Part shown: positions 54,983 to 64,000 of the stretch, one piece after another | How the letters are laid out: each line of letters opens with the position of its first letter | Position numbering within the stretch: position 1 is the stretch's first letter | Source: Gracilariopsis chorda | Lineage: Eukaryota; Rhodophyta; Florideophyceae; Gracilariales; Gracilariaceae | Direction: 5' to 3' | Length of the DNA: 64,000 bases | Assembly: GCA_003194525.1 (NCBI GenBank) | Contig: NBIV01000026.1 | Location: forward strand, 432,990-496,989 | Program-made: the position numbers and the translations under genes | Notes under the pieces: model-generated | Databases searched by the model: none | What the model saw: only the letters and a program-made list of their open reading frames with translations | Told to the model about the DNA's origin: nothing

Positions 54983-55546
54983 CTAATGACGCCTCTCTAC
55001 AAAGTCTACAGCTTCTTGTAGAACATGGTTTTTTAAGCTCACCGGCATTGGATGGACATCCTGCGCATTTTGAGGCGTCTTGTCTTCATTATGCAGCAGT
55101 AACACATCATCAGATGTTCTGACACGCGAAAGTCCAACATAGAACTGACCCGGCGAAAAAAAGTTTGTTCGAAAGTCAATTATCATTTTCTCCAGCGTTT
55201 AACCTTGCGCTTTATGCACAGTTGCTGAAAATTGCAATCTGATGGGTAACCGTCGACGTTTGATTTTTACATCTGCAAACTCCAAAAACAAAGTAAATTG
55301 TGGTGCAATGCCCCAAAGGGGAAAAACACCGAAAGACGTCCGGGATCTTCCTCTCACGAGGTGAACCCAGTTGGGTAGAGCCCTCCCAGAGGTGTCACGG
55401 CGAAGCCGGTTTGTAAGACCAGGGACACCTGTCGCGACTCGCGCAGGGAGGTGAAGGCGAAGAATCGGTATCCGCGTGAGCGGGGTGTGATCCTCAGTAG
55501 AGGTATGTTTCCACGTAAGTGGGGGTGTGTGAGCGGATGCGCACAC
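54983..55546 (-). pseudogene. Helitron/PIF1-type helicase C-terminal fragment, interrupted
   Basis: Two in-frame blocks read leftward: 55546-55199 and 55186-54983. The junction carries a highly conserved helicase stretch (LPIRLQFSATVHKAQG, then a TAA stop, then TLEKMIIDF), so an expected Gln codon after AQG has become a stop. The continuation GQFYVGLSRVRTSDDVLLL is the classical helicase motif VI region of PIF1-like and Helitron Rep/helicases. Only the 3' end is present. The upstream part (55311-55546) keeps helicase-like GLTN and LPNWV words but is already inside the palindrome-rich zone. A dead remnant. Confidence 0.75.
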
Positions 55547-55628
55547 GAGGGCCGCGGATAGCGGGAGGTGCTACCCTAAAAAGGGGAAAGAGGAAGGACG
55601 AGTGGGTCGCGAGAGCGACGAGTAGATA

Positions 55629-55770
55629 CGGCAATGCCGGTGGACAGGACTCCCTATACAGGGCGAAACACCAATATGATTGGAACAATTAGTACTCCCA
55701 ATGATGGGTCTCCTTCAGATGTGCAAGGGGGGTGAACTTCCGTACACTACGGTGCTTCCCTCCAAGGAGG
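55629..55770. repeat. Regular non-coding block of micro-palindromes
   Basis: In DNA without a supported gene, palindromes start at 55629 (CGGC-AAT-GCCG), 55652 (CCCT-ATAC-AGGG), 55671 (CCAAT-ATG-ATTGG), 55697 (CCCA-ATGA-TGGG), 55740 (CCGTA-CAC-TACGG) and 55759 (CCTCC-AA-GGAGG), mostly 19-26 nt apart. This shows that the pattern does not need coding sequence. Confidence 0.85.
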
Positions 55771-55847
55771 AGTTGAGAACACGCGGAGGCGGTAAAGCTC
55801 AGAGCCAATTCCCCAGGTTGGGGTCCCTTGTTGGGGAAGGTTTACTG

Positions 55848-55872
55848 GTGCGACGGCAGTGCGCCGTCGCAC
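55848..55872. repeat. 10-bp perfect hairpin, 5-nt loop
   Basis: GTGCGACGGC (55848-55857) and GCCGTCGCAC (55863-55872) flank AGTGC. This is the longest perfect stem of the array and lies in a non-coding gap between the helicase remnant and the plus-strand frame. Confidence 0.8.
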
Positions 55873-56167
55873 TAAGTACTAGCTTCCCAGAAATGGGTGT
55901 GAAAAAAAAAAAATAAATAAAATTAACTAAAATACTCCACATTCCGTGGCAACATCCACTACTGTGGCCAACCGCCAATTGACCCAAAACCGTGTCCCAC
56001 GTGTCCATACCCACCATTGTGGGGCGTAGTTCATATACACACTACACAACCGATAATATCGGGAAACCGTTCAAGTACCCAGAATCCCTCCCTGAGGGCG
56101 TTGCACTTCATATCCCCCCCCTTAAGACGGGAAAACGACCGCGGGCGCGGAGAATTCCCAGACGAAA

Positions 56168-60760: not shown

Positions 60761-61634
60761 GGCGGGCCAGTAAGAAATCCCTGCGAAGGGTTAGATAAAG
60801 CTTCCTCCCACCGGAGTGTCCCCCGAGTTTCGGGTAATGCGAAAGGTGCAATATCCGCTTCTGTAGCGTGTGCGGTACCACAACTTGTGGGGTAGCCTCG
60901 ACGGTCCTCACGAGGTAACCAATGTCGTTCACCCCGAAGGGGAGGTTCTCTCCGCCGTTGAGGCGTGCACGTATCCTTGTACAGAAGGGGTCCCCGAATT
61001 GTTCTCGGATCATTTCCTCGGTCTCAACCGGTACATAATTTCCCGGTATGGGTTTCTCAGAATCCTCTCGCGATGCGAGTAGGTAGTCGAAGTCAGCATC
61101 TTCGTCCCAGTTTTCTGGCTCAGCCTCGACGGCACATTCCGGATCATCCGGGTCCATTGCCATGAAACATGGGACTTCATCATCCTCCGTTGGGAGTGCC
61201 TCCCCACTTGTGGGTAAACGCGACAGAGCGTCGGCTTGGGTGTTCTGCGCGCCCTTTTTATAAATGACTTGGAAGTCATATTCCGCGAGGCGGAGTCTCC
61301 AGCGCATGAGGCGTCCCGACGGGTCGGAGATATTCATTAACCACCTCAGTGAGGAATGATCCGTGTACACGGTGAAATGGACTCCCATAAGGTAGGGGCG
61401 CAGAGTGGTCATCGCCCATACGACGGCGAGGCACTCTTTCTCCGATACGGAGTAGTTCCGCTCATGAACATTGAGCGAACGTGACCAATAACCAATTGGA
61501 TGTCGTTCCCCCTCGGGGGTGGTTTGAAAAAGAGCACACCCGACTTGGTAGTCGCTCGAGTCCGTATCTACGGAGTATGGCAACCCAAGTTTTGGGAGAT
61601 GTAGGATTGGTGCTGATGTGACAGCCTCCTTCAA
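60750..61634 (-). pseudogene. Gypsy RNase H and start of integrase
   Basis: 294 codons. VDTDSSDYQVGCALFQ starts RNase H; YSVSEKECLAVVWA, YTDHSSLRWL and QADALSRL complete it. An acidic linker follows. The integrase zinc module begins with HLSHYPKLGGHSGGRK and finishes with CTQC in the next frame (60760-60293). This is the longest intact piece of the pol region. Confidence 0.87.
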
Positions 61635-61811
61635 GGAGTTAAAGGCTTCCGATTGCTCGGGCGTAAATGTTCCCAGTTTTGGGGGGTTCCCTTTCGCAAC
61701 AACGCGTTCAGGGGCGCTGCAGTATCCGAAAAGTTCGGGATAAACCGTCGATAGACGTTGACCAGCCCCAGAAAGGAGCGCAGTTCCGTTTGAGTACGGG
61801 GTTCTTTCGCC

Positions 61812-62986
61812 TCAACGAGGATTGACTCGAGCTTTCTCGATCGCTAACCGTCCAGGACGGATAATGTGACCCAGATACTTCACAGTATCTGTGAAAAACT
61901 CGCATTTCCTCAACTTGAGGGTAATTCCCGCATCGCGGAGTACGGTCAGCACGTCTCGGACGTGAGTGAGATGGTCGTCCAACGAGTTGGAGAAGATGAT
62001 AATATCATCAAGGTAGACCAGACAACTCCGCCACTTAAAGCGGTTGAGTAGGATATCTACTGCACGCTGAAAGGTGGCGGGGGCGTTGGTTAACCCAAAT
62101 GGCATCCGCTTGAAGCGGTACGTTCCTGCATGGAGGTGAATGCGGTTTTGTCGCGATCCTCCTGTCTGACAGGTACTTGCCAATATCCCCAATTGGCATC
62201 AAGGGCCGTGAACACGGTGGCGTCTCCAAGGGAGTCAATGCACTCGTCCATACGAGGGATGGGGTACGTGTCCCTAACAGTCACGGCAATTGAGCCGGCG
62301 GTAGTCGACACAGAACCTCCAGGTTCCGTCAGCCTTTAAAGCCAGTACAACTGGGGATGCCCAGGGCGATTGAGCGGGCTCAATCACACCTGCGCGGAGC
62401 ATCTTTTCCACCTGGGACTGCTCCTCTTCCCGAGCTTTCGGACCTGCCCTGTAAGGGGTTGTGCAACCGGTCGCGCACCGGGGATTAAATCGATCCGGTG
62501 TTCCGTTGCATCAAATCTCGCCAAGCGAGCCATCCCACATTGTGGTGAATTCCCGTAACATAGTACGGAGTTTGTCGCGGTGCGACTCTGGCACGTGGCT
62601 GAAGTCCAGCGCTTCAAGTGCTTTTTTCCGGATCAATCCGGTCATTGCTCGATGGAGCATTGTCCTGTGGAACAGGTGTGGTTCGCAAATTCCGAGTTAC
62701 TCGGTATGTTCGACGCTGAAGTAGCGGTTTCCTCCCCCTCCTTAGACTTGACGTCTTCGGACGGCGGGGTGAACTCCTCAGAAGAGGTGGTAACTCCGAG
62801 TACATCGGCGGCTGTCATCTTCGTTGGCAGCATTCCCATAGGATGGGGGTTACACTCCCAATTACTTGGTGTTTGACCAGATACTGGGGGTGTTTGCCAA
62901 GGTTGGCAACCAATATCCGGAAAGGAACATCCGGGGGAAATGGAGACAATTCCATTAGCCAGCGCCAGCTGGGATTTCTCGTACAA
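61812..62986 (-). pseudogene. Gypsy reverse transcriptase region, several frame breaks
   Basis: RT blocks appear in successive overlapping frames: EHRIDLIPGARPV (about 62500), DTYPIPRMDECIDSLGDA and ALDANWGYWQVPV (62311-62090), then RFKRMPFGLTNAPATFQRA and the catalytic YLDDIIIFS (YLDD codons 62004-62015), then KYLGHII. Each block is conserved but neighbouring blocks sit in different frames, so at least three indels separate them (or the assembly has errors). The connection-domain block ([17 protein letters not shown]) lies further left, near 61750, in yet another frame. Confidence 0.85.
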
Positions 62987-63030
62987 CGAGGCGAGGGGTT
63001 GTATAACCCGAAGACCGTGTTGACGGGAAT

Positions 63031-63732
63031 TTACCTGTACCCAGACTTGGGACTCAGCCGGTATAGAAACCGAGGCAGCGACGCGGAGCTGGTGGACTCG
63101 CGGGACGCGGGCGGTGGTTCCTGCGCAGCAGGGAGCGGAACTTGTTTCCGAGAGGACCGCTTTAGCGGGCGGCGAACAATCGGAACCGACGATCCGTCGT
63201 CAAGTTCTACACGCCTGAGGCGGGGCCTGATTGCGTCGACAAATCTGTCGCAGTAATCACATCCCAGTATGACTGGTGCTGCCAGTGAACGGCAAACGAT
63301 GAAGTCCAACTTCACCACAGATGTACCAAGTCTCACGACGAGGTCCACTGTGCCCACCGTTTGTAACGGATTGTTGTTCGCATCCGAAATGTCGGGGACC
63401 GCGTCAGAGCGGATACGCGACCGCACAAGCGGGGGTAACAATGATTCCACGACAAAGTTGGGGCCTGCACCTGTATCCAGGACGGTGAGAAACCTCACCA
63501 TAAACTGGGGGTCAAGGCCAAGGTCGGCATAGACCTTATAATTGCGCTTGGCCAAGACCAAGACTCTACCGGGAATCCGGGGATTTTTACTCCGTATCCA
63601 CGGGCGACGCAACACACCGAGGTGCGCAGAGTCCGCGTCAGCGGTGTCTTTCCTCGAGAGGACTTTCACCGGGGAGCGAGGCGAGGACGCCTCGGGCGCC
63701 AACAGCCTCGTTTTTGAGGACGCCTCTCCCAA
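63031..63732 (-). pseudogene. Gypsy aspartic protease region
   Basis: 233 codons without an ATG at the start, part of pol. LDTGAG (Asp codon at 63475-63477) is the retropepsin active site; ISDANNNPL and VILGCDYCDRF are the flap and C-terminal psi-loop equivalents. A Pro/Ser-rich linker follows toward the reverse transcriptase. The frame breaks after 63031 and resumes in other frames (62986-62642). Confidence 0.82.
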
Positions 63733-64000
63733 AGGGGAGACTCCCTCAGTTAGTTTTCCGCCTTCGGCGGTGGGTTGGTTTCCTCGACAACGAGTGCTTC
63801 ATCCCGTTGACGGGGGTTTCTATCCGCATAAGCGGGGGTTGCAACGGATGGTTGCGTGATCTCCCGAATCGGGGTGTATGAAGCTTGCCGCGCACGCGGG
63901 GTCTGTGGTAGGGCGTGAGAAAAGTCCGTTTTAGCACGGAGGTAGGAAGCCGTCGGGACGGAACGTTTCTCCTCTGGAGTGAGGGCCTCATAATTTGCCA

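Follow-up and report, generated by a model that had tools for sequence, protein, structure and literature searches.

A Ty3/Gypsy-type LTR retrotransposon of Gracilariopsis chorda carries a lattice of mini-hairpins which extends through its coding, antisense-coding and non-coding sequence. The copy lies at one end of the analysed DNA (a stretch of 64,000 nt, hereafter the window), and its hairpins are best explained, with a probability of about 0.4, by selection acting on the whole single-stranded genome of one retrotransposon clade in favour of mini-hairpins of bounded size, the folded molecule presumably being the genomic RNA and its reader the element's own Gag.

The element is a Ty3/Gypsy LTR retrotransposon, as the TG..CA termini of the LTR, the target duplication, the purine run and the order of pol all fit this assignment (Table 1). 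All fetched copies that reach the 3′ end align from 55295–55299, and a full copy (C8) measures 11.5 kb in total, with two LTRs that are 99.6% alike and a 5-bp target duplication, ACATG. The pol order protease–RT–RNase H–integrase is read on the minus strand: Pfam places RNase H before integrase, RT is located upstream of RNase H by the BLAST identity of a frame in copy L010 to pieces found with PF00078, and in the same copy the putative protease frame continues into RT. The DTGA motif presumably identifies the protease. Gag exhibits one CCHC-like knuckle and, in the window family, also a basic, serine-rich stretch; a Pfam search of Gag returned no Gag family, the matches being SR-25 in subfamilies A and C, weak and below the cut-off, with two still weaker matches in subfamily C. 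The host DNA contains one frame with a phycobilisome domain and gives an impression of long uninterrupted frames, both of which are suggestive of a red alga.

Table 1. Features of the retrotransposon copy in the window, with hairpin counts where available.
Feature	Position	Strand	Remarks
Ty3/Gypsy-type LTR retrotransposon copy, 3′ part	55299..64000	-	Runs past contig end; lattice along full length
3′ LTR, 812 bp, TG...CA on plus strand	55299..56110	-	29 broad-rule hairpins
Purine tract adjoining 3′ LTR, putative polypurine tract	56114..56123	-	From sequence; function inferred
Antisense ORF 1, 326 aa	56168..57148	+	19 strict hairpins (synonymous shuffles: 3.1); nothing matched in Pfam
Antisense ORF 2, 255 aa	57187..57954	+	17 strict hairpins (synonymous shuffles: 4.0); nothing matched in Pfam
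Integrase core, rve PF00665, E 3.5e-12	60293..60760	-	Lattice weak: 3 strict hairpins vs. 0.7 in synonymous shuffles
RNase H, PF17917 E 3.1e-37, PF17919 E 7.6e-28	60750..61634	-	16 strict hairpins vs. 3.9 in synonymous shuffles
Beginning of H2C2 zinc domain, below cut-off	within 60750..61634	-	
Putative protease region of pol, DTGA motif	63031..63732	-	Without Pfam match at E 0.1
Gag C-terminal end, approximate	63750..64000	-	Open frame in copies L010/L029
Example stretch of the initial annotation	63725..63990	.	12 lattice hairpins

From 55299 to the contig end, 181 non-overlapping strict CC..GG mini-hairpins are found, compared to 17.0 ± 3.9 in 30 dinucleotide shuffles (maximum 25); the remaining 55 kb of the window hold 38. 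Mini-hairpin density amounts to 4–15 per 500 nt inside the element as opposed to 0–2 across 110 host windows, and the lattice stops where the element ends. Background was provided by the same 55 kb and by the flanks of the C8 copy. With a stem of at least 5 bp and a loop of 2–6 nt, the successive 2-kb windows between 56 and 64 kb show 28/10.2, 34/9.3, 38/10.3 and 48/8.3 hairpins (observed/shuffled; 20 shuffles each), and the one containing the element border shows 16/8.8. Below 54 kb, 27 such windows were examined; the one at 16001 stands out (18/8.8, z 4.0), and the runner-up has a z of 2.3. Within genes, the excess persists in synonymous shuffles, with 29 strict hairpins vs. 3.2 in gag and 37 vs. 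4.6 in protease-RT. The two types of shuffle rule out composition or chance as the source of the hairpins; a codon-phase artefact is likewise ruled out, since the hairpin start phases are near even. The excess claimed in the initial annotation is therefore real, and its count of 11 hairpins in 63720–63980 is reproduced exactly (63725 to 63969), although six rather than seven have CC..GG as outermost pairs; a further one, at 63725, has its CCC inside a longer stem. The annotated extent, 55311..64000, needs a correction at its left: 55311 is the first hairpin and the border is the element end at 55299, while the right limit is merely the contig end.

The hairpin unit consists of a stem of 4–5 bp and a loop of 3–6 nt, with linkers of 5–9 nt favoured. 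In the full C8 copy, hairpins occur along all 11.5 kb at a spacing of about 20.5 nt; 403 satisfy the broad rule, of which about 147 are expected by chance, leaving a surplus of some 250 per 11.5 kb. The near-regular pitch described at first holds at short range, where the centre spacing of nearest neighbours peaks at 16–27 nt and the best period is 20.5 nt. The periodic power of the strict set (0.215) exceeds the 95% limit of gap permutations (0.199), whereas that of the broad set (0.161) stays below its own limit (0.183). Long-range order is thus modest, and “lattice” is to be understood as a preferred short-range spacing with some quantisation. It is indeed shape rather than sequence that is repeated, as had been proposed, given that 390 hairpins display 101 different outer 4-mers, though CCG-N accounts for 123. 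The base composition of the loops revealed no strong consensus; what the hairpins have in common is found at the base of the stem and in the flanks. Neither kissing between loops nor an avoidance of identical stems in neighbouring hairpins is indicated, since at every distance tried the values stay within about two standard deviations of permutation; they deviate most at neighbour distance 3, where equal stems are in excess (22 vs. 14.4 ± 3.6).

The lattice is present in four subfamilies (W, the window family, and A, B and C) of one clade, which differ in their sequence dialects. Four-way comparisons yield uncorrected p values of 3e-15 for the outer pair, 8e-10 for the third pair, and 7e-6 and 2e-6 for the two flanks. 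W and C, the latter being closest to W in Gag (59%), do not differ in flanks, while W and A differ only in flanks and not in the outer and third pairs (p 0.14 and 0.26). RT pieces of the subfamilies with other dialects are 80–85% identical to the window family. Among the elements sampled, the lattice is shown to be restricted to this clade: it is absent from the four distant Gypsy pieces tested, two of which were also examined over 3-kb stretches, and from the three Copia pieces tested, and hence is not general to the retroelements of the host. A search of viral contigs with six peptide patterns matched no relatives. This distribution bears on the evasion of RNA silencing or host nucleases, whereby a hairpin every ~20 nt would leave few unstructured stretches of small-RNA-target length. 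The pitch of 20.5 nt and the presence of hairpins in coding regions, non-coding regions and the LTR alike agree with such a role, and weak, capped stems would not be expected to become Dicer substrates; but Copia and distant Gypsy pieces of the same genome lack the lattice and evasion would not require different dialects, which makes it an improbable explanation.

Selection is supported as the force preserving the hairpins, including those inside protein genes, by the depletion of shared variants, covariation and a minimum-loop rule; of the causes offered in the initial annotation, selection for structure is the one thus favoured. Variants shared between copies avoid stems relative to private ones, with odds ratios of 2.3–5.1 when each of 19 copies serves as reference (largest p 0.039) and of 3.16 for the union of copies (p 8e-6). 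Two short, rearranged copies (L023 and L028) were dropped from the set of 20, and columns with fewer than 10 letters (15 in the LTR set) were excluded. The depletion extends to the non-coding LTR, where shared variants affect 7 of 258 stem sites but 64 of 549 other sites (p 7.7e-6; alignment A1, with 7 of 26 LTRs excluded), even though stems of the LTR also carry somewhat fewer private variants (27/258 vs. 87/549), which counts against this reading. Hairpins with a shared stem variant amount to 46 calls, which overlap and many of which were seen in few copies. Between subfamilies, both bases differ in 1131 pairs, and 474 of these (0.42) keep Watson-Crick pairing, as opposed to 0.23–0.29 in six slid controls, so that the compensatory changes suggested as a check are in fact observed. 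Hairpin positions turn over between subfamilies while their density persists, a comparison which leaves out hairpins spanning alignment gaps.

Stem complementarity exceeds the expectation from per-position base use and ends at a loop limit of 3 nt. In all four subfamilies, the fourth pair (expectation ~25%) is present in 45–67% of cases if a loop of 3–5 nt is left and in 16–32% if 1–2 nt are left; the fifth pair (likewise ~25%) is present in 45–78% if 3 nt are left and in 8–41% if 0–2 nt are left. With a remaining loop of 4–5 nt, the fifth pair reaches only 23–54%, which counts against the preferred explanation. Pairs leaving a loop of less than 3 nt occur at about chance level, and this drop disfavours a protein reading cruciforms or double-stranded inverted repeats, another of the causes originally considered. 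A recurrent half-site in double-stranded DNA does not account for the symmetry, given the excess complementarity, the stop at 3 nt and the diversity of outer 4-mers. Towards the outside, extension in the window family falls below chance for spans 12, 13 and 14 (35/190, 26/193 and 21/126 vs. 50, 45 and 31 expected).

The third cause put forward initially, template-switch mutagenesis, would have the element's own RT rewrite the hairpins: nascent cDNA snaps back, one arm copies the other and stems are perfected in each cycle without being of any use. Such rewriting would explain why stems contain only Watson-Crick pairs, why the strands differ little, why both bases of a pair change and why the lattice is restricted to one clade, correction taking place only in active lineages. 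It would, however, place the pairs just outside the stem at or above chance, not below it, and explains neither the cap at 4–5 bp, nor the spacing, nor the different dialects of such similar RTs. Quasi-palindrome correction perfects inverted repeats in coding DNA via arm homogenisation and loop inversion, and, unlike the lattice, involves no spacing rule or stem-length cap in the accessible part of its description (PMC8604942). Among 193 loop pairs, drawn from 103 hairpins whose loops vary, a single inversion was found; this near-absence is weak evidence because the same part reports inversions only for arms over 9 bp (PMC8604942). Rewriting by RT is accordingly disfavoured and unlikely, while ranking first among the alternatives.

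Which molecule folds is addressed by strand-specific features. On the plus strand, strict hairpins are preceded by T (0.52) and followed by G (0.39) or T (0.33); the T before them had been annotated correctly, whereas “TG or TA after” was a loose description. The claim that flanks keep to one strand whichever strand is coding holds for the window family, where each of the five regions examined shows a bias that tracks the sense strand of the element, but not for subfamily A, which shows no strand asymmetry. Stems show no G·U tolerance: transitions giving G·U in sense RNA are slightly rarer there (1039:1151 vs. 2834:2685 outside stems, p 0.002), and among mismatches it is G·T of the plus (antisense) strand that is most clearly enriched, at the outermost pair (121 vs. 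77). This counts against a simple RNA reading. Hairpin energies reveal no sense-strand preference, as the strands differ only in C when RNA parameters are used, and in no subfamilies but W and C when DNA parameters are used, each time slightly in favour of antisense (copy L054 enters the energy and loop-limit analyses without its first 600 nt). Both the absent G·U tolerance and the nearly strand-symmetric energies would better suit single-stranded cDNA, in which the hairpins could assist reverse transcription or the packing of cDNA, e.g. as a register for polymerase and RNase H sites or with nucleocapsid on cDNA. DNA hairpins can form 2-nt loops; these are unused here, and the sense-side flank bias of the window family also speaks against cDNA, which is a rather unlikely substrate, second in rank among the alternatives.

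The folding energy of 100-nt segments is only mildly lowered, to a mean z of -0.57 to -1.16, with both strands alike, which counts against the preferred explanation; two stretches of host DNA gave 0.01 to -0.18. Genome-scale ordered RNA structure, defined by an excess of folding energy, has been proposed in some RNA viruses; it resembles the lattice in being genome-wide and superposed on coding sequence, but the energy excess of the lattice is slight. A general ordering of the RNA that needs no specific reader, serving compaction or the prevention of misfolding, would agree with the coverage of the entire genome and with turnover of positions at constant density. Considering the small energy excess, the capped stems and the specific outer pair and flanks, it is the least probable of the explanations.

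The preferred explanation, selection for hairpins read by Gag, combines these observations as follows. Selection would retain density, size and spacing while single hairpins are gained and lost between subfamilies. The genomic RNA of the element would be the folded molecule, along which its own Gag may bind the hairpins as scattered sites for packaging and assembly, and the dialect could let Gag favour the RNA of its own element over the many transcripts related to it. Common descent may, though, underlie both the dialect and the similarity of Gag.

The lattice shares with MS2-type signals the occurrence of many short stem-loops throughout a genome, here conserved or re-created. MS2 packaging signals are not known to be evenly spaced, whereas the lattice comprises several hundred hairpins at roughly even spacing, and in an LTR retrotransposon. 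In RNA viruses such as MS2, scattered short stem-loops are thought to be bound by coat protein during assembly, and those of MS2 share a loop and bulge motif (PMC6281560), while in the lattice the base composition of the loops shows no strong consensus. Among LTR retroelements, the genomic RNAs of Ty3, a Gypsy relative, Ty1 and HIV-1 also contain structured regions through coding sequence; they are described as A-rich mosaics with stable regions in up to 30% (Ty1, Ty3) or ~40% (HIV-1), and the accessible part of their description includes no uniform array of bounded mini-hairpins (PMC11381356). Among the open-licence papers searched, none appeared to describe a regularly spaced hairpin array in a retrotransposon.

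Taken together, the array may tentatively be regarded as a whole-genome structural code, in which several hundred bounded mini-hairpins are arranged quasi-periodically over coding, antisense-coding and non-coding sequence and a subfamily dialect would let the Gag (or RT) of each element recognise the nucleic acid of that element among many relatives and bring it into order. If true, a whole mobile genome would carry a second code on top of the first, constraining much of its coding sequence and preserved in spacing and shape, not in sequence. The hundreds of hairpins per subfamily constitute a large natural data set on how a retroelement Gag picks its own RNA, for which the lattice-free Gypsy and Copia elements of the same genome provide a built-in contrast. 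If packaging proves to be the use, the lattice would represent a previously undescribed variant of dispersed packaging signals.

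Perfect stems were counted in 2-kb windows, each compared with 20 dinucleotide shuffles, and a strict class was defined by a span of 10–14 nt, a stem of at least 4 bp and CC..GG outer pairs. The lattice of micro-palindromes which the initial annotation had claimed for 55311–64000 is borne out, with 181 strict hairpins in the element as opposed to 17 ± 4 in 30 shuffles and 38 in the remaining 55 kb of the window. The element exceeds dinucleotide shuffles, the control proposed at the time, in every 2-kb window from 56 kb, where stems of at least 5 bp with loops of 2–6 nt number 28, 34, 38, and 48 per 2 kb (8–10 expected). 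Below 54 kb, the highest of 27 such windows is that at 16001 (18 vs. 8.8 shuffled). Strict hairpins per 500 nt amount to 4–15 in the element and 0–2 across 110 host windows. Short inverted repeats are also locally enriched at 16001–18000 (stems of at least 6 bp, z 5.4), a stretch that overlaps one of the tabulated frames.

Features located in the window
Feature	Position	Strand	Basis
LTR	55299-56110	minus-strand element	sequence and copy alignment
Frame presumably resembling DDE/pogo-type transposase	16934-18178	-	
Short frame presumably resembling retrotransposon Gag core	13732-14538	-	

The left edge of the lattice coincides with one end of an LTR retrotransposon, as every fetched copy reaching this point aligns from 55295–55299. 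On the minus strand, the LTR is followed by a purine tract, a 3.4-kb stretch containing two antisense ORFs, and pieces of integrase, RNase H and protease. Since the contig ends at 64000, a complete copy on another contig (C8) was used for full-length reading. This copy measures 11.5 kb, with an LTR pair 99.6% alike and a 5-bp target duplication, and carries 5–15 strict hairpins per 500 nt along its whole length as opposed to 0–1 outside, except in a likewise hairpin-bearing inverted solo LTR of the window family nearby. At L029, the inverted solo LTR of this family (2416–3240) is 90% identical to the window LTR and retains the lattice, with 19 strict hairpins. DNA searches returned 1222 first-look candidates for a pol piece (best 40 at 98–100% identity) and 1825 for an LTR-end piece (best 40 at 94–100% over the whole query), and the family is thus larger than the scored copies. 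Window positions 56230–57544, which cover most of antisense ORF 1, have no match in three copies (L015, L016, L027) and a partial one in L024, so that the stretch from pol to the 3' LTR exists in two or more versions within the family. Next to the copy at L028 lies an additional partial LTR of greater age (8262–8564, 92% identical), so this locus has been rearranged.

Hairpin enrichment peaks at spans of 11–14 nt. Across four subfamilies (expected about 25%), a fourth pair follows the outer pairs in 45–67% of cases where the remaining loop is 3–5 nt and in 16–32% where it is 1–2 nt; a fifth pair forms in 45–78% with a remaining loop of 3 nt, in 8–41% with less and, less regularly, in 23–54% with 4–5 nt. 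Pairing thus gives way where a folded strand reaches its steric limit, a pattern unexpected for protein sites on double-stranded DNA. Pairing just outside the stem is below chance in the window family at spans of 12–14 nt. Under a broader hairpin rule, the C8 copy holds 403 hairpins (147 shuffled) with preferred gaps of 5–9 nt and a period of 20.5 nt. The near-regular pitch noted earlier stands for the strict set (power 0.215, above the gap-permuted 95% limit of 0.199) and fails for the broad set (0.161, below 0.183).

Hairpin starts occur in every codon phase. They exceed synonymous shuffles 4- to 9-fold in the gag, protease-RT and RNase H regions and in each of the two antisense ORFs, and a short integrase piece shows a weak excess (3 vs. 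0.7). Three host genes gave 4 vs. 2.1, 6 vs. 1.5, and 1 vs. 1.3, the second exceeding all 100 synonymous shuffles.

In an alignment of 19 copies (the window copy plus 18 of the 20 fetched), private variants at non-CpG sites are about equally common in stems (48/1223) and elsewhere (191/5945; p 0.22). Shared variants, which should mostly stem from active lineages, are depleted in stems whichever copy defines the hairpins (odds ratios 2.3–5.1). The comparison of genomic copies suggested by the initial annotation shows stems spared by shared variants (odds ratio 3.16, p 8e-6, hairpins from the union of all copies) and, among 19 of 26 LTRs with identity down to 85%, two-sided changes in four pairs, a number reached in 0 of 500 column shuffles (slid versions 0–1). 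In this non-coding LTR, shared variants fall on 7/258 stem sites vs. 64/549 others, and stems also have somewhat fewer private variants (27/258 vs. 87/549). We consider it about 90% probable that these are real hairpins of bounded size and under selection.

Fifteen other Gypsy RT pieces were examined. Eleven, at 80–85% RT identity to the window family (W), show a hairpin excess (12–21 vs. 6–7; lowest z 2.0), while four at 35–44% (z -2.1 to 1.6) and three Copia pieces (z -0.6 to 0.6) show none, nor do 3-kb stretches of two distant Gypsy elements (32 vs. 33.8 and 35 vs. 29.4 ± 4.4). For a distant Gypsy on contig C44 (L046/L056), the 600-nt RT piece lies below shuffles (2 vs. 6.4, z -2.1) and the 3-kb stretch at expectation. 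The 11 close pieces form three subfamilies (A, B, and C), with 70–75% DNA identity among themselves and to W. All carry the lattice, at 107–116 broad hairpins per 4 kb vs. about 46, with best periods (without a null) of 20.5–21.5 nt, weak in B. Hairpin positions mostly differ between subfamilies, sharing a centre in 6–24 cases per comparison (1–3 expected), and doubly changed pairs are Watson-Crick in 474/1131 as opposed to 258–320 of 1098–1167 when slid. The subfamilies also differ in dialect, their typical pairs and flanks: CC..GG is the main closing pair in both W and A, which are told apart by their flanks alone, TC..GA is as frequent as CC..GG in B, and the slight differences between W and C concern the pairs, not the flanks.

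Full-text searches of open-licence papers brought up no apparent description of such an array. Ty3, Ty1 and HIV-1 RNAs are described, in part of one study, as mosaics of flexible and stable regions (PMC11381356). The nearest known idea is that of dispersed packaging signals, which have a common loop motif; the lattice loops show no strong consensus in base composition. On this comparison, and with coat-protein binding of the hairpins putative here, the lattice is assigned to no known family.

As to their purpose, we infer that the first-choice reader of the hairpins would be the element's own Gag. All four families encode one CCHC-like knuckle in Gag (located by pattern matching in A, B, and C and by visual inspection in W), and the window-family Gag has a basic, serine-rich stretch. 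Gag identity to the window family is 48–59% for A, B, and C, and the closest one has the same flank dialect. Against reading by Gag, G·U pairs are not tolerated, the sense strand has no energy advantage, and folding energy is just mildly low. These three observations would agree with hairpins that act at a single-stranded DNA stage or with rewriting of hairpins by the element's reverse transcriptase. Rewriting leaves the capped stems, the scarce outer pairs, the spacing and the dialect unexplained. The restriction of the lattice to one clade, together with differing dialects in a single host, points to a reader that is the element's own product, not the host's.
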